A stretch of DNA of 54,137 nucleotides from the NCBI GenBank assembly GCA_020852965.1, contig JADYZV010000108.1, positions 1-54,137 on the forward strand, given 5' to 3'. Position 1 is the first letter of the stretch. Every line of letters starts with the position of its first letter. Below, piece after piece: positions 38,762-44,771 of this stretch. The notes beneath the pieces were generated by a model that was not told where the DNA came from, searched no databases, and saw nothing but the letters and a program-made list of their open reading frames with translations. A program made the position numbers and the translations under genes. The DNA is from Pirellulaceae bacterium (GTDB lineage: Bacteria; Planctomycetota; Planctomycetia; Pirellulales; Pirellulaceae).

Positions 38762-38835
38762 GCCGACGTGGCTCGACTAAGAAAGGCGTCCGCCTTGTAA
38801 GCGGATCCATGCTGGTGCGAATCCAGTCGTCGGCT
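38762..38835 (+). tRNA. tRNA-Thr(TGT)-like RNA preceding the Y-RNA modules
   Basis: The acceptor stem GCCGACG/CGTCGGC (7 bp) and anticodon stem TCCGC/GCGGA (5 bp) are perfect. The loop CTTGTAA carries TGT (Thr). T-stem GCTGG/CCAGT has one G·T. Departures from a working tRNA are a D-arm with only ~3 pairs and no GG in its loop, T-loop TGCGAAT instead of TTCGAAT, and no encoded CCA. It ends three bases before Y-RNA-like module a. The acceptor stem is typical of bacterial tRNA-Thr(TGT), so it probably descends from one and now acts as a tRNA-like domain. Confidence 0.75.
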
Positions 38836-38838
38836 CTT

Positions 38839-38911
38839 GCATTTGAACTGCCTGTTCGGATTACATCAATCAAAACCGAAAGTATCTGAACAAACCACTT
38901 CGTTCATCTGC
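38839..38911 (+). ncRNA. Y-RNA-like module a
   Basis: Lower stem TGAAC (38844-38848) / GTTCA (38902-38906), extended outward by GCA/TGC. The internal loop has TGCCT on the 5' side and AAACCACTTC on the 3' side. Upper stem GTTCGGAT (38854-38861) / ATCTGAAC (38884-38891) has one G·T. The apical loop is about 22 bases and A-rich. The geometry (short 5' loop, longer 3' loop with CACUUC) matches the lower part of vertebrate Y RNAs, where Ro60 binds. Shared with modules b, c and d. Confidence 0.75.
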
Positions 38912-38919
38912 ATTGTTAC

Positions 38920-38953
38920 GACTCGCCGCGATGGGGAACTGTCGCGGCGAGTC
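38920..38953 (+). terminator. 12-bp perfect hairpin after module a
   Basis: GACTCGCCGCGA (38920-38931) pairs with TCGCGGCGAGTC (38942-38953) around a 10-base loop. Only ATTTACC follows, with no long T run, so termination is possible but not assured. It could also define the 3' end of the tRNA-like/Y-a transcript. Confidence 0.6.
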
Positions 38954-38970
38954 ATTTACCTCAATCTGTT

Positions 38971-39044
38971 GTGAGCGATTTGGCGCTAGCCCTCGGTTCT
39001 GTTGGTCTGTTATAAGAACCGGCGGATAGCGCCGAACCGCTCAG
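38971..39044 (+). repeat. Palindromic element 1 in the leader of the SEC-C gene
   Basis: It begins GTGAGCGATTTGGCGCTAGC and ends CCGCTCAG. Nested pairings are TGAGCG/CGCTCA, GGCGCTA/TAGCGCC and GGTTCT/AGAACC. A second copy occupies 39851-39927 just before the TROVE start, and a half copy is at ~15556-15590. Both full copies end shortly before a ribosome-binding site. The family looks like a dispersed planctomycete repeat that may have been co-opted as a 5'-UTR structure. Confidence 0.75.
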
Positions 39045-39063
39045 TTTAAATAGGAGCTCTATC

Positions 39064-39111
39064 ATGCGCGCAAATAATCTCCAAGATTCGTTTTTTCGAA
39101 CCGATGAGTAA
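39064..39111 (+). CDS. 15-codon leader peptide overlapping the SEC-C gene
   Basis: An ATG preceded by AGGAG (39052-39056) encodes [15 protein letters not shown] and stops at TAA within the first codons of the SEC-C ORF (GATGAGTAA). The overlap could couple translation. The short length makes this tentative, and it might be the degraded start of a lost gene. Confidence 0.35.
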
Positions 39112-39271
39112 ACGACGTCGAGGCTTCCCATCAGAATCGAACGTCAAACGCGGAGTCCGCATCGTTCACGGCGACAAGCTGCTCGAGGAAAAGCTCGGGC
39201 GCAATGATCCGTGTCCCTGTGGCAGCGGACAACGGTTCAAGAAATGCTGTCTGCGATCGGGACGTTTTTGA
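39104..39271 (+). CDS. SEC-C zinc-motif mini-protein
   Basis: This 55-residue protein has a basic start ([17 protein letters not shown]), a linker '[14 protein letters not shown]', and the SEC-C motif '[16 protein letters not shown]' with three Cys and one His-equivalent position. SEC-C motifs occur at the end of SecA and in small regulators, where they bind zinc and ribosomes or other proteins. It lies between Y-RNA modules a and b. A copy of its C-terminal half sits inverted at 15365-15545. Confidence 0.75.
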
Positions 39272-39327
39272 TGGCTCCAATCGCGACGAGTACTTTTAGG
39301 GAAAAGGATTGAATCACTCAATACAAA

Positions 39328-39508
39328 CCTGAACTGCAGGTCGGGACTCCATGAGGGTCCTAAGGTAGCGATGTCGGGCGACCGACTAGTGAATGGCGTG
39401 CAAGTCTCCTTGGAGATAAACTCGCCTGTCAACGGTCGAGCAACTTGATTGCTCGAAGACGGACGGCCCTAATGCCGAGAGGCGACTCTCGACCACACTT
39501 CGTTCAGG
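39328..39508 (+). ncRNA. Y-RNA-like module b with 23S-rRNA-like apical domain
   Basis: Lower stem CCTGAAC (39328-39334) / GTTCAGG (39502-39508), plus one A-T. Internal loop TGCAG (5') and CACACTTC (3'). Upper stem GTCGGGA (39340-39346) / TCTCGAC (39487-39493), 7 bp with a G·T at the same position as in modules a and d. The ~140-base apex contains a contracted 23S rRNA domain IV sequence (39356-39463). A 181-base RNA is predicted. The 3' upper strand could alternatively pair with 39612-39620. Confidence 0.75.
39356..39463 (+). ncRNA. 23S rRNA domain IV-like insert
   Basis: Blocks in the order found in bacterial 23S rRNA: GGTCCTAAGGTAGCGA (39356-39371), GTCGGG...CCGAC (39373-39386), GAATGGCGT (39391-39399), GTCTCC..GGAGA (39404-39416), AACTCGC (39419-39425), AAGACGGA (39456-39463). 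In E. coli these run from just after helix 69 to about A2058. The spacers are shortened: the AAATTCCT stretch is gone and a CGAGCAA/TTGCTCG hairpin replaces a longer segment. About 108 bases replace ~135. It is too reduced to be a functional rRNA gene. Confidence 0.8.
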
Positions 39509-39520
39509 TAACAAAATACG

Positions 39521-39640
39521 GCGACTGCCGGTTCGGAATCCATGCGTCACCAAAGTAGCGACCAGTGAGCCTGGGGATTGTGGCAACATGATCTGCGGGT
39601 TCGATTCCCGCTCGAGAGTCTGACCACCACTTCGTCGATC
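39521..39640 (+). ncRNA. Y-RNA-like module c with tRNA T-arm
   Basis: Lower stem CGAC (39522-39525) / GTCG (39634-39637); internal loop TGCCG (5') and CACCACTTC (3'); upper stem GTTCGGA (39531-39537) with TCTGAC (39619-39624), requiring one bulged T. The apical part includes a perfect T-arm, GCGGG-TTCGATT-CCCGC (39595-39611), directly followed by TCGAGAGTC. That 9-mer is complementary to GACTCTCGA (39484-39492), which would give a tRNA-like acceptor stacked on the T-arm, competing with module b. The fold is therefore ambiguous. Confidence 0.6.
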
Positions 39641-39651
39641 TTTTCATCTTC

Positions 39652-39689
39652 GCTGAACCAGAGATATACATGACTGTCTCTATCTTCAG
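39652..39689 (+). ncRNA. Hairpin between modules c and d
   Basis: GCTGAA pairs with TTCAGC, with an inner AGAGA/TCTCT helix, around 39652-39689. It may be the 3' end of module c or an independent spacer. There is no T run. Confidence 0.35.
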
Positions 39690-39761
39690 CAATACAAGAA
39701 CACAAGTGCAAAGAAGGGACGCTGCTTGGTCGAGTGATCATCGCGGCGAATATCCAAGAAC

Positions 39762-39846
39762 TTAGTTCGACTGCCGGTTGGGATTACATCGCCTGTTAAA
39801 CGGTTGGGTGAAAGCCCACATTCTCAACTACCCTTCGTCGAACTAA
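39762..39846 (+). ncRNA. Y-RNA-like module d
   Basis: This is the best-formed module. Lower stem TTAGTTCGAC (39762-39771) / GTCGAACTAA (39837-39846), 10 bp perfect. Internal loop TGCCG and TACCCTTC. Upper stem GTTGGGA (39777-39783) / TCTCAAC (39822-39828) has the conserved G·T. The apical loop contains a TGGG-TGAAAG-CCCA hairpin. TTTTG follows, which may aid 3'-end formation. It lies 95 bases before the TROVE start codon, so it may also be part of that gene's leader. Confidence 0.8.
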
Positions 39847-39850
39847 TTTT

Positions 39851-39927
39851 GTGAGCGACAAGGCGCTAGCCGTTGGTTCTTCAGGCGTTGTATTGCCAGA
39901 ACCGGACGCTAGCGCGTTTCCGCTCAG
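39851..39927 (+). repeat. Palindromic element 2 in the TROVE leader
   Basis: Second copy of the element at 38971: it begins GTGAGCGACAAGGCGCTAGC and ends CCGCTCAG, with GGCGCTAGC/GCTAGCGC and GGTTCT/AGAACC pairings. The TROVE frame is open through it from a GTG at 39851, but the repeat is better read as a leader structure. Confidence 0.75.
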
Positions 39928-39940
39928 TCTGGAGGAATCC

Positions 39941-41578
39941 ATGGTTAACATGTCATTATTCGCAAGCAAGACTGCGCGATTGCCACGAGCCGACGCAGTT
40001 AACGAAGCCGGTGGTCGAGCTTACAAGCTCGAGCCGAAGCATGCGTTGGCACAAGTCGCTGCGACGGGAACGTTAGGCGACGCATTCTACTCAACTGCGG
40101 GAACGCAGCTTGACGAAGTCCTGAAGTTGATTGGGCAAATCGATGACGACCAGTACTTGGCGAAGCTAGCGGTCTACGCACGGCAAAAGGCGGCGATGAA
40201 GGACATGCCAGCCGCGTTGCTGGTAGCATTGTCCGTTCGTAATACCGAGTTGATGCACCGCGTGTTTGATCGCGTCATCGATAACGGTCGCGTGCTGCGA
40301 ACCACGTTCCAGATGATTCGATCTGGCCAGTTCAAGAGCAAGAGCGGAACGGTGCGAACGGGACTTTCGAGCTCCGTACAGCGTGCGTTCCAACGATGGT
40401 TGAACGAAGCCTCAGTGGCTAAGTTGCTATCGGCGTCGATCGGTAACGACCCGAGCCTGCGAGACGTCCTACGAATGGCGCGACCAACTCCTAAGGATGA
40501 CGAGCGTCGAGCTTTGTTCGGTTGGTTGACGGATAAGCCTGAAGACAAGTGGACGCCAGCCACGGCAGCCAACTTGCCTGGGCAAGTCCAGGCCTTGCAG
40601 GCATTTCGAGCTGCTGTCGACGAAGCAACTCAGCTCCTGGTCATGGGCGAACTCGAAGGCGTTCGCTGGGATATGCTTGCCGATTCGGCCAAGGGTCCAA
40701 GCGTATGGGCTGCGATCGCTCGGAAGATGGGACCGCAGGCGCTGCGTATGAACTTGAATACGCTGTTGCGTCATGATGTGTTGGCGACGACCGAATCGGT
40801 CAACTACATCGCTGATCGCATCGCCGACAAAGCAGAAGTACGACATTCTCGTCAGTTTCCGTACCAGTATTTTGCTGCATACGTAAACGCCGACGACAAG
40901 GTACCGCAAAAGATCAAGACTGCGCTGCACAAGGCAGCCGAGATCGCCTGTGGTAACGTACCTGAATTGCCGGGACCGGTTGTGATTGGTCTGGATACGT
41001 CTGGATCGATGAGCTGCTCGGTAACGGGATTCCGTGGCCGCGGAGCTACTTCGAAGATGCGCTGCGTCGACGTCGCCGCCCTGTTTGCCGCAGCCATCCT
41101 GCGACGCAACCCGGATTCGATTGTGATTCCGTTCGACACTCGAGCTTACGATGCCAAGATGGATCCAAGTGATTCGATCTTGAGCATTGCCGAGCGACTT
41201 AGCAAGTACGGAGGCGGTGGAACCAACTGTGCTCTGCCGATAGAAGCTGCCAATGTGCTGCACCGTGGACGCAAGTTCGCTGGTGTGGTCCTCGTCAGCG
41301 ACAACGAGAGCTGGGTTGGAACGGGCCGTCACGGCTCAACCGGGGTGATGACAGCCTGGGAAGCCTTCGTAGCCAACCAACGCAAGTTGGCCGGCCGCGA
41401 CGCGAACCCAAAGCTTGTTTGCATCGACATCCAGCCGTATCAGACAACGCAAGCTTGCGAGCGAGCTGACATCATGAACATCGGTGGCTTCAGTGACGCC
41501 GTGTTCAACGTCATCAGCGCGTTCCTCGCTGACAACAACCAGCGCTTCGTCGCCGAAGTCGAAGCGATCGAACTGTAA
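39941..41578 (+). CDS. rsr: Ro60/Rsr-type TROVE-vWA RNA-binding protein
   Basis: A protein of 545 residues from ATG at 39941, with GGAGGA at 39931-39936. The TROVE part (HEAT-repeat ring, residues ~1-330) starts '[20 protein letters not shown]' then '[20 protein letters not shown]'. The vWA part has the MIDAS 'GLDTSGSM' (DTSGS ~352-356) and later '[15 protein letters not shown]' and 'VLVSDNESW'. Ro60 proteins hold misfolded RNA in the ring and bind Y RNA on the outside. In Deinococcus, Rsr acts with exonucleases in 23S rRNA maturation and RNA decay. Four Y-like RNA modules are encoded just upstream. Confidence 0.93.
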
Positions 41579-42797: not shown

Positions 42798-42880
42798 TTT
42801 ACTTCGGAGTAAATAGTCGCATTCTAGTAAACTTGCCTTGCGGTTGTTTACTTGATATGCCATATTTACTCCGTAGTAAA
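42798..42880. promoter_or_regulatory. Operator array of the AbiE-type operon
   Basis: Two palindromes, TTTACTTCGGAGTAAA (42798-42813) and TTTACTCCGTAGTAAA (42865-42880), share TTTACT-N4-AGTAAA arms. Between them lie single half-sites AGTAAA (42826-42831) and TTTACT (42847-42852). AbiEi antitoxins are known to bind inverted repeats upstream of their operon and repress it cooperatively, which fits this spacing. The right palindrome lies inside a longer open frame, arguing for the downstream start of abiEi. Confidence 0.75.
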
Positions 42881-42901
42881 GTTGTTGTTTCCGGTGAATC
42901 C

Positions 42902-44002
42902 ATGGAAAAGTCCCCACAAGAATTCGATCGTCTGCTCACGCAAGTGCTCTCAGAAGTGGGGGCTTTTCAGGTAGTGGTCCCGCACCGGAAAGACGCGGAA
43001 TACGATTTTCGTGTTGTGAAACCGGATGGCTCGGAATTCGAAGTCGACGTCAAAGAGTTCAAGCGTATTACGCCAGCGACTGCCGAGTCGGCTTGTATGA
43101 CGCTGAAGCGACACAGTGAAGCTACCGGGGCGCAGCCGATGATCTATGCCGCTATCGTGTCTGATCGGACTTCGGAAATTGCTGCCAGGCATGGAGTTTC
43201 GTGGCTGGACTATGCAGGAAACTGCCGCTTGGTTTTTCCCAAGCACGGAATCTTTGTGCGTCAAAGCGGAATCGACAATCCGTTTGGCAAGCAGCTCCCG
43301 AAAGTCCTCAACGTTTTTTCTACGAAGTCCAGTCGCGTTGTCCGCGCGATGCTTCAGGAGCCAACGCGTGGTTGGCAACTTAATGAATTAGCTGGCCATC
43401 CCGATGTGCGTGTCAGCCCCGGCCTGATGTCGCGCATCAAGCGATCCCTGGTCGAGGGAGGTTATGCGTTGATGCTAGAAGGACAACTGTACTTGAAACG
43501 CCCCGATGACCTGTTCAAGGATTGGGTAGAGCACTACCAAACTCACAAACCCAAAGAATGGGGGTTCTACATGCGTGGTGAGCCGGAGCAGGTGGAGCAG
43601 CAAGTTGCGACGTGGTGTTCAGAAACAGGCAATGAGCATGCGCTTTCACGTTTCTCTGCTGCCTGGCGATTGGCACCGGAGGTACGGTACAACGTGGTAA
43701 GCTTTTTGGTTACCACGAGAGCAACACTTGCCGAACCAATGCTCAAGCTCTTCAAACAGTATGGTGCTCGAAAAGTCGAATCAGGTGCCAATCTGATTCT
43801 ACAGATCGCAGACGATGAGAGCTACTTGAGCAATCGAGTTGGAGATGCATTGAAGACAACTTCACCATTGCAGACATACCTCGACTTAATGGCGATGGAT
43901 GGTCGAGGTGAAGAGGCTGCGGTGGCCATCTATGATAAGTACTTTAAGCTGAAATTCGCGGAGGCGTCCGAGTTGGCGATGGAGAATCATGAAGGAAACT
44001 GA
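42902..44002 (+). CDS. AbiEi-like type IV antitoxin / transcription repressor
   Basis: A protein of 366 residues from ATG at 42902. The N-terminal part includes 'AARHGVSWLDYAGNCRLVFP' and a winged-helix stretch 'LQEPTRGWQLNELAGHPDVR' with 'LMSRIKRSLVEGGYALM'. The C-terminal part is the effector domain ('DALKTTSPLQTYLDLMAMDG', 'EEAAVAIYDKYF') typical of the AbiEi_3-like group that precedes AbiEii nucleotidyltransferases. It overlaps the next gene by 14 bases. Confidence 0.8.
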   Translation: MEKSPQEFDRLLTQVLSEVGAFQVVVPHRKDAEYDFRVVKPDGSEFEVDVKEFKRITPATAESACMTLKRHSEATGAQPMIYAAIVSDRTSEIAARHGVSWLDYAGNCRLVFPKHGIFVRQSGIDNPFGKQLPKVLNVFSTKSSRVVRAMLQEPTRGWQLNELAGHPDVRVSPGLMSRIKRSLVEGGYALMLEGQLYLKRPDDLFKDWVEHYQTHKPKEWGFYMRGEPEQVEQQVATWCSETGNEHALSRFSAAWRLAPEVRYNVVSFLVTTRATLAEPMLKLFKQYGARKVESGANLILQIADDESYLSNRVGDALKTTSPLQTYLDLMAMDGRGEEAAVAIYDKYFKLKFAEASELAMENHEGN

Positions 44003-44771
44003 AGCAGCACGTGCTGTCTTGCTCGAGGTTCTCAATGCGCTCGGCGCGATGCGTGATGAATTGATCATTGTAGGTGGATGGGTTCCAGATCTGCTGTATC
44101 CAACGCATAAACACATGGGATCGTTGGATGTCGACTTGGCCGTATCGCCGAAAGCATTGGGTGGGGATGCGTACTCATCGATTCGAGAGCGTCTGACCCA
44201 AATCGGTTACACGATGCGAGAGTCGCCTACTCGATTCTTCAAGCAATTTCCTGGCCTTGCTAATCCAATAAAGATCGATCTCATTACTGGCCAGTACGTT
44301 TCTGAACACAAGCAGGATTCCATCCTGGTTGACGAGCTTCGCATCAACGCACTTCGCGGCATCGACCTGGCTTTCGAGTCATCCGAGGAGATTACGATTG
44401 AAGGAAGAATGCCAGATGGTTCCGTTAACCAAGTGACCGCGCGTTTGGTCGCCCCTGAGGCGTACATCTTGATCAAGGCGATTGCGCTGGACGAACGGAC
44501 CAAAGACAAGGACGCCTACGATATCGCGTTTGTTATGAACCATTACAAACCCTCACTTGCTGATCTGGCGAAGAAGGTGCATGGGATAGCTGGAGCGGGA
44601 ATTGGCAAGGAAGCATTGGAATTGCTCCGTACCAAGTTCCGCACGTTTGACTCTGTCGGTCCAGTGTGGGCTGGTAGGGCAGCAACCACTGCAGGGCAAG
44701 ACCGCGACATGTTTCAGCGTGCAGCCTATGAAGATGCAGCGGATCTTTTCCGCTCGCTTGACGCACTGTGA
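43989..44771 (+). CDS. AbiEii-like nucleotidyltransferase toxin
   Basis: This 260-residue protein has 'LIIVGGWVPDLLYP' (GG motif, residue ~18) and 'GSLDVDLAVSPKAL' (DxD metal ligands), the nucleotidyltransferase core. A later helical segment includes 'PEAYILIKAIALDERTKDKD' and 'AYDIAFVMNHY', with the conserved KxKD. AbiEii-type toxins transfer nucleotides to tRNA acceptors or similar targets and cause abortive infection. It overlaps the AbiEi gene. Confidence 0.8.
   Translation: MKETEAARAVLLEVLNALGAMRDELIIVGGWVPDLLYPTHKHMGSLDVDLAVSPKALGGDAYSSIRERLTQIGYTMRESPTRFFKQFPGLANPIKIDLITGQYVSEHKQDSILVDELRINALRGIDLAFESSEEITIEGRMPDGSVNQVTARLVAPEAYILIKAIALDERTKDKDAYDIAFVMNHYKPSLADLAKKVHGIAGAGIGKEALELLRTKFRTFDSVGPVWAGRAATTAGQDRDMFQRAAYEDAADLFRSLDAL

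Follow-up and report, generated by a model that had tools for sequence, protein, structure and literature searches.

Sequence Evidence for a Circularly Permuted 23S rRNA Junction in the Head of a Planctomycete Y-RNA-Like Unit beside Ro60

Introduction

The described systems closest to the locus reported here are the bacterial Y RNAs and their Ro60-family protein, Rsr. According to the available excerpts of two papers (PMC8394870, PMC4726728), the Y RNA YrlA mimics tRNA: its basal stem tethers Rsr, whereas its tRNA-like domain serves tRNA modification enzymes as a substrate and is also the part bound by PNPase. As far as the same excerpts go, Rsr of Deinococcus has a role in rRNA maturation and rRNA decay, and a Y RNA tethers PNPase in that genus (PMC8394870, PMC4726728). 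The choice of RNA clients by Ro60, and the reason for the existence of Y RNAs, form a long-standing question.

Copies of ribosomal RNA sites occur in a different setting as well. Ribosomal-protein leaders copy an rRNA site and thereby control the ribosomal-protein mRNA, and rRNA mimicry in such leaders was reportedly treated by Meyer in 2018.

Here we describe a Y-RNA-like unit of a member of the Pirellulaceae whose head appears to copy part of 23S rRNA domain IV in circularly permuted order. A Y-RNA head that copies 23S, an rRNA linked to Rsr, makes client mimicry directly testable.

Results and Discussion

Organization of the Locus

The window, by which we mean the whole 54,137-nucleotide stretch that was analyzed, is contig G000:C108 (JADYZV010000108.1) of an 8.37-Mb genome. 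Its relevant features are collected in Table 1. Helices are named H67 to H71, and 23S positions are given in E. coli numbering.

Table 1. Features of the Y-like array, the 23S-like unit, and the neighboring genes in the window
Feature	Position	Strand	Basis or remark
tRNA-Thr gene	38762-38836		Directly 5′ of the short Y-like unit
Short Y-like unit without client-like head	38842-38917	+	Array scan ran past the 3′ end; end set by eye
Whole Y-RNA-like unit with 23S-mimic head; second of the Y units in its array	39327-39509	+	Pairing ends, ends resembling those of other units, relatives
Outer stem, 5′ strand (putative Ro60-binding)	39327-39334	+	Pairs with 39502-39509; 8/8 standard pairs; in relatives pairing kept, sequence different
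Second stem, 5′ strand	39339-39346	+	Pairs with 39487-39494; 8/8 standard, including one G-U; aligned relatives differ
H69 3′ strand, AGGGTC	39354-39359	+	Pairs with 39465-39470; covarying pairs; permuted-23S model
GGTCCTAAGGTAGCGA, identical to 23S	39356-39371	+	Exact match; head profile versus 23S
H71 hairpin, GTCGG-GCGA-CCGAC	39373-39386	+	Profile, covariation
GAATGGCG, H71/H67 linker and H67 3′ strand (GGCG, 39395-39398)	39391-39398	+	Profile, covariation, permuted model
New closing hairpin linking both H67 strands	39404-39417	+	Hairpin kept in relatives; versus 23S within shuffles, so no 23S origin by these tests
H67 5′ strand, CGCCT	39423-39427	+	Permuted model lays window GCCTG on 23S GCCTG
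H68 equivalent	39428-39464	+	GTC/GAC base pairs (39428-39430 with 39462-39464) and shortened hairpin 39436-39456
H69 5′ strand GGCCCT and loop AA	39465-39472	+	Covariation, permutation scan, permuted model; absent from the sequence-only reading
Second stem, 3′ strand	39487-39494	+	Pairs with 39339-39346
Outer stem, 3′ strand	39502-39509	+	Pairs with 39327-39334
Third Y-like unit, head with T arm	39525-39635	+	Missed by the array scan; placed by eye
Short Y-like unit immediately 5′ of Ro60	39764-39844	+	Array scan
Ro60/Rsr gene	39941-41578	+	TROVE and Ro60 vWA domains; neighbor of the array kept in relatives

An earlier reading of this DNA, made from the sequence alone, had placed a Y-RNA-like hairpin beside a Ro60 gene, and both parts of that description are borne out. 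The two ends of the unit are joined in a long stem (8 + 8 pairs) interrupted by an internal loop, as in a bacterial Y RNA in the broad sense, and Pfam recognizes in the product of the neighboring gene the TROVE domain (PF05731, 2.3e-12) and the Ro60 vWA domain (PF25045, 1.6e-14). Consensus scans of the window returned no promoter and two terminator-like sites, both on the minus strand, versus 1.4 expected.

Several other elements were observed nearby. Two similar long hairpins (gagcg..gcgctagcc..ggttct / agaacc..ctagcgc..cgctca; 38969-39044 and 39851-39925) lie just 5′ of a SEC-C gene and of Ro60, respectively, and are also found at the syntenic locus of G009. Downstream of Ro60 (42833-44771) is a pair of genes for an AbiEi-like antitoxin and a nucleotidyltransferase (Pfam AbiEi_2 and NTP_transf_8), likely a type IV toxin-antitoxin system. 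The same genome contains further Ro60-like fragments of 82-88% identity (G000:C69, 674-2365; G000:C193, 11262-11738), which suggests a second or broken copy.

Similarity of the Head to 23S rRNA

Because no LSU rRNA was matched in the assembly to which the window belongs, the 23S rRNAs of relatives were used for host comparison. The sequence-only reading had listed six 23S rRNA blocks occurring in order. All of the strings are present at 39356-39463, but only blocks 1-3 are supported as 23S sequence, blocks 4-6 scoring within shuffles. GGTCCTAAGGTAGCGA, at about positions 1921-1936 of E. coli 23S, has a single exact copy in the window, where dinucleotide shuffles average 0.27 matches at up to three mismatches.

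A profile of 12 aligned heads (that of the window and 11 from relatives) was compared with three planctomycete 23S rRNAs. The 5′ part of the head (39351-39398: H69 3′ strand, H70 linker, H71, and H67 3′ strand) scored 49.7-54.9 bits against shuffle maxima of 23.7-27.0 (12 shuffles each), and we regard its homology to planctomycete 23S, as judged from these alignments, as real. The middle hairpin (blocks 4-5) reached 12.9-16.0 bits in the three rRNAs, with shuffle maxima of 17.2-17.8, and is not supported by this comparison; when it was forced onto seven rRNAs downstream or upstream of H67, 8-94 and 17-150 of 150 shuffles, respectively, reached its score. Over the whole 23S, the profile of the 3′ part scored near the null maximum, and in two of three rRNAs it aligned best immediately 5′ of H69. 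Single 3′ halves (seven sequences against three rRNAs) fell mostly within shuffles, 9-182 of 200 of which reached the score, and in 6 of the 21 tests they aligned best near positions 1901-1914.

The order of the parts was addressed by scoring all circular permutations of the 23S segment running from H67 to H67. For all 15 rRNAs the best break fell within the H69 loop, at 50.0-66.9 bits, whereas native order scored -0.6 to 12.5 bits and the best-scoring break at any other site 30.9-51.8 bits; the H69 position was partly given beforehand because the head profile starts there. Alone, the 3′ half outscored dinucleotide-shuffled 23S tails in six of six rRNAs (0/300 each). When the shuffled tails kept the H69 strand that pairing forces, the true score was reached 4, 0, 3, 0, 1, and 13 times in 300 in the six rRNAs; sliding segments of 23S reached it in 11 of 927 cases for one rRNA and in 0 of 927 for another.

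Two covariance models were then compared: R2, built from ten permuted planctomycete 23S segments with no Y RNA included, and R3, a native-order control with the letters of R2 in 23S order. The window gave the best R2 match of all sources, full length, at 41.8 bits (rough E value 1.1e-9) and with no non-standard pair marked; R3 gave 18.9 bits. R2 matched 28 of 30 Y sources and R3 matched 21, L018 and L161 being matched by neither, and R2 scored higher in 27 of the 28 sources, with a tie in L169. In 23 of the 30 sources, the R2 match was at least 115 nt long and extended over the complete head. Partial matches of 41-100 nt were obtained in L025, L158, L168, L169, and L163, the last two in the 5′ part only, and because of this limited coverage these sources say little or nothing for permutation. 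In the R2 alignments of the window, L020, L155, and L157, the H67 5′ strand, the H68 base, and the linker all lie on their 23S counterparts. As controls, R3 scored 181-193 bits on three of its own source 23S genes, each of which R2 matched in two pieces of 64-78 bits, and a model of the Y heads (R1, below) reached only 20-24 bits on eight true 23S genes.

These scores also bear on the idea that only the 5′ part, a linear fragment from the H69 3′ strand to the H67 3′ strand, derives from 23S, the 3′ part being 23S-like merely through the need to pair. Such an origin would fit the near-background scores of 3′ halves in whole-23S searches, an H69 5′ strand imposed by pairing, and the alignment of just the 5′ part of L163 and L169 by the permuted model. 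We nevertheless hold it to be quite improbable: even with the forced strand kept, just 0-13 of 300 shuffles match the observed score, the permuted model covers the whole head in most sources and places the H67 5′ strand, H68 base, and linker correctly in four alignments, and the U-G wobble of 23S H69 is retained in 16 of 28 distinct rows though other pairs would serve.

We therefore read the head, on sequence grounds, as a shortened, circularly permuted H67-H68-H69-H71 junction of 23S domain IV. Its path would lead from the H69 3′ strand to H71 and H67, through a new hairpin that reseals the structure, and back by way of H67 and H68 to the H69 5′ strand. The ring of helices would be opened in the H69 loop, and the Ro60-type stem would therefore stand in place of that loop. 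If permuted H67-H71 mimics are defined as a class having all junction helices in permuted order, the window unit and the majority of its relatives belong to it, membership of L163 and L169 not being supported by R2. The contracted domain IV of the sequence-only reading was thus correct as to shortening and 23S likeness, and incomplete in that the junction is, by the R2 and R3 scores, also circularly permuted.

Rfam LSU models, RF02541 among them, matched nothing in the window at the gathering threshold or at E values up to 1, an outcome that had been named beforehand as counting against LSU similarity. A permuted, shortened copy of 23S could escape these models. Having neither an RF02541 match nor the native helix order, the unit falls outside the LSU rRNA family.

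Some divergent forms were noted. In 23S units of L163/L198 (Rhodopirellula JC639) and L169 (G586), the 5′ end retains H69 loop sequence and the unit terminates in GRTAAGAGCGGC, closer to the 23S GGTAAACGGC; here the cut may lie inside the H69 stem, not the loop. A 23S-like permuted element of a Gemmataceae genome (L025, 1307-1463) retains UGUAACUAUGACGG and is without an obvious Y stem. A search for its relatives matched 121 of 392 genomes, yet these matches cover just 28-36 nt at the H69 motif, the result to be expected from true 23S genes; no further element of this type was recognized among the matches inspected, one of which was the Y unit of G586.

Pairing, Covariation, and Folding

R1, a covariance model of the 12 heads, was used to examine pairing in 30 sequences (28 distinct). 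Its structure was paired in 94.6% of 643 cells, with changes on both sides in 14 of 23 pairs and a covariation of 0.413 versus 0.160 in shuffles (0/500), values to be read with the caveat that the alignment had been fitted to this structure; in slid versions of the structure, paired cells drop to 20-45%. The H69 stem occurs as AGGGTC/GGCCCT (the window), ACGGTC/GGCCGT, AGGAGC/GCTCCT, AGGAGC/GTTCTT, and ACGGGC/GTCCGT.

These pairing data, together with the kept position of the array beside Ro60 and the wide distribution described below, make it, unless the covariation is an artifact of the alignment, exceedingly improbable that the head is a decayed rRNA pseudogene or the relic of an insertion, even though a short, intergenic, rRNA-like string is what such a relic would leave.

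Compared with 23S, H71 of the mimic lacks the 7-nt apical loop, and the UUCCU-containing stretch that precedes H71 is missing. AACTCGC contains the strand that pairs with GGCG in H67 and is not conserved in relatives, whereas AAGACGGA persists in them mainly as CGGA or ACGGA and aligns, in permuted order, with the 23S H68/H69 linker (AAACGGC). GUGCC was considered as the 5′ strand of H67 and rejected; CGCCU fits.

In the lowest-energy fold of the window RNA (-71.5 kcal/mol), the H69 3′ strand pairs with an upstream GGACTC; with the H69 stem enforced, the energy is -69.8 kcal/mol, 1.7 kcal/mol costlier than the GGACTC hairpin. Compared with 200 shuffles, the unit has the more stable fold (z = -2.73); for a 341-nt stretch there is no such advantage over its shuffles (z = -1.06).

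Distribution and Linkage to Ro60

A 351-nt query matched 12 of 60 kin genomes, that of the window included, and the head was the part most often matched. The match in G027 is to the neighboring unit only, so that the 23S-type part is found in 11 of the 60, in some of them cut by contig ends. At least 28 genomes, that of the window among them, were matched by R1: at least 22 of the 396 searched in the order and at least 10 of 392 in the phylum, four being common to both. The counts are lower bounds because nine candidates were scored per genome. The hairpin with its 23S-like head thus recurs in other genomes. In named genomes, ATGANGGTCCTAAGGTAGCGA occurs at 118 loci or more. When 127 loci among the matches listed were sorted by their upstream letters, 115 were of 23S type and 12 of Y type; L025 and L027, sorted as 23S type, turned out on reading to be Y-like or unusual. 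Searches of viral contigs (with one pattern), phages, and plasmids did not find the 23S-mimic unit.

A Ro60 match is present in 28 of 29 genomes with the 23S unit, although G332 and G004 contain no more than fragments; among 21 genomes without the unit, which were hand-picked and not random, 5 have a match. As expected of a Y RNA in the broad sense, the unit stands beside Ro60: in 24 of the 29 genomes, the gene directly follows the unit on the same strand, with 0.44-2.05 kb between them (the G033 unit counted here is an interrupted one). The exceptions are G004, G106, and G341, with Ro60 on another contig; G332, with distant remnants; and G320, with no Ro60 and a degenerate unit. G009, of the same genus as the window, has Ro60 and Y units at the syntenic locus without the 23S unit, and in G007, G041, G123, and G140 Ro60 likewise occurs with no 23S unit in the stretch searched; R1 gave no match at E values up to 1 in the stretches around five Ro60 genes lacking the unit. 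The unit is therefore not essential to Ro60.

In G033 (6.627 Mb; L195, 3027-4664), an inserted element splits a 23S unit, and AGGTAGCG is present at each of the two junctions; other loci of this genome contain intact units.

As an alternative, the array may serve as a 5′ leader on the Ro60 mRNA, in which the 23S-like head would bind a ribosomal protein or another factor and so control expression of Ro60. In favor of this, 0.4 kb separates the unit from the Ro60 gene downstream, the consensus scan placed no terminator-like site in that interval, and leaders that mimic rRNA are known. However, further units stand between the 23S unit and Ro60; the ends of the 23S unit match those of the other units; and at two further loci of G033 a 23S unit occurs without a full Ro60 gene alongside. 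A leader thus seems to us distinctly unlikely.

The exact H69 pattern is found in the 23S of 17 of 30 genomes. In 15 genomes a C-G to G-C swap in H69 could be scored in both host 23S and Y RNA (G009, without a unit, and G096, which was unclear, were left out); the two had the same variant in 14 and differed in G391. This agreement counts as one event, not 14, because the G variant forms one clade in the 23S tree (100/100).

Arrays of Units with Different Heads

The 23S-type unit is part of a tandem array of Y-like units 5′ of Ro60, in which it is often second after a short unit. Nine array loci that were scanned have 2 to 36 tRNA or tmRNA genes close by, in long clusters in most cases; the window has a single tRNA gene (Thr) directly upstream. 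The ends RACTGCC..GG..TaCA and CTTCGTY recur in 17 23S-type, 27 tRNA-type, and 50 other units, a likeness partly imposed by the unit finder, which demanded part of it.

In L172 (8098-10279), L186 (9209-10039), and L200 (2703-3592), the arrays 5′ of Ro60 comprise as many as about nine or ten Y-like units; they include several cut-open tRNA heads, one of them Leu-like and one Lys-like with the anticodon arm retained. Units of the tRNA type are ordered T arm, acceptor, D arm, and by our reading of the sequences their heads appear to be opened in or beside the anticodon arm. Two units of K23_9 (L172) score above shuffles as tRNA (Leu-like, 36 versus 25; Lys-like, 44 versus 25), whereas the 23S unit of the same genome (L147/L172) shows no tRNA similarity above shuffles (20, versus 27 in shuffles). 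Against Rfam YrlA, two tRNA-type units of K23_9 gave E values of 6e-8 and 9e-8 (44.3 and 43.8 bits), below the cut-off of 69. Among 118 units compared with rRNA, long runs of shared 13-mers occur in the 23S type only; in the others such matches are isolated, with two at most.

In a third type of head (39525-39635 in the window; L172, 8351-8474), CCAGTGAG.CTGGGG is combined with a T arm and a long hairpin. It directly follows the 23S unit in the window and in K23_9, and a weak tRNA-Sec match of 23.7 bits lies inside the K23_9 unit.

Similar stems with unrelated heads within arrays suggest to us that the 23S head is a swappable module. The sequence-only reading had named conserved stems with unrelated loops as a finding against it; this is indeed what the arrays contain, and G009 has no 23S unit, but the conservation of the 23S module where it is present is not undone by unrelated heads on similar stems.

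A Possible Role in Client Recognition

We propose that the permuted-23S Y RNA is displayed by Ro60 as a client mimic, serving as a gate of the Ro60 ring or as an adapter to large subunits, a role that we consider somewhat probable. By analogy with the tethering by YrlA and its PNPase-binding tRNA-like domain, the 23S head would be a shape copy displayed by Ro60. Ro60 would bind the terminal stem and show the 23S core outside its ring, where it might be recognized by the factors that normally act on this part of 23S, such as a helicase, assembly or recycling factors, or a PNPase-type nuclease like the partner known from Deinococcus. As a gate, the core would keep the ring closed until true misfolded or broken 23S outcompetes it; as an adapter, it would direct Ro60 to large subunits that are immature or damaged. 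The array could then be a set of client-specific adapters, with 23S one client among them. The fragment runs in the same sense as rRNA instead of being complementary to it, which makes the guide function that had also been suggested unlikely. The modified 23S positions 1939 and 1962 fall in stretches that are cut away or changed in the mimic, which argues against the mimic being a substrate of the enzymes concerned.

More broadly, and with confidence that stops a little short of an even chance, planctomycete genomes may hold a library of Ro60 client mimics at the ends of tRNA clusters, comprising several tRNAs and the 23S H67-H71 core, each opened at an exposed loop into which a Ro60-binding stem has been spliced; exchangeable Y RNAs would in this way address one Ro60 to several clients.

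The loops missing from the mimics also admit an explanation as an uncuttable decoy, in which mimics without the sites of stress endonucleases (the anticodon loop in many tRNA mimics; the H70 loop with UUCCU and, mostly, the closed H69 loop in the 23S mimic) would occupy the nucleases, or offer cut ends for repair, without being cleaved. According to the excerpts available of one study, MazF-mt3 and MazF-mt6 cleave 23S at UUCCU in helix/loop 70 (PMC5408214). UUCCU precedes H71 in 15 of 15 planctomycete 23S rRNAs and in 0 of 30 mimics; however, any trimmed mimic would lose loops too, and a given 5-mer is usually missing from a 120-nt RNA. Moreover, L163 has TCCTT at the place of UUCCU, within a stem, the divergent L163, L169, and L025 retain H69 loop sequence, and one tRNA-type unit keeps a Lys-like anticodon arm. 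We judge the decoy to be unlikely.

If display of the 23S core by Ro60 is correct, Y-RNA mimicry extends from tRNA to rRNA, and a four-way junction of the ribosome would fold naturally outside the ribosome after circular permutation.

Comparison with Known Systems

A literature search, including the accessible portions of PMC8394870, PMC4726728, PMC11109978, and PMC7790460, returned no report of a Y RNA that mimics rRNA; the founding papers on bacterial Y RNAs lie outside its scope, and priority is not claimed.

With YrlA (RF02553), the window unit shares a terminal stem, an internal loop, a second stem, a cut-open client RNA as its head, and the Ro60/Rsr neighbor. The head itself sets them apart: that of YrlA is tRNA-like, with D and T arms, whereas the window unit has, in place of a tRNA-like head, what we read as 23S H67-H71, and the RF02553 model gave no match at E values up to 1 in window positions 38900-39900. 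The Y RNA/Rsr/PNPase system (RYPER) of Deinococcus likewise joins a Ro60-family protein to a Y RNA, with rRNA a known client of Rsr, but no rRNA-like head is described for the Deinococcus Y RNA in the excerpts of PMC4726728 and PMC8394870.

Ribosomal-protein leaders resemble the unit in being RNA copies of an rRNA site. Theirs, however, controls a ribosomal-protein mRNA, whereas the copy in the window stands in a Y stem beside Ro60 and appears to be circularly permuted. No ribosomal-protein gene directly follows the unit, the next large gene on its 3′ side being Ro60. Helices 67-71 of 23S rRNA itself (RF02541) share both sequence and helix set with the window head, which differs from them in its permuted order, its trimmed loops, and the new hairpin joining the strands of H67.
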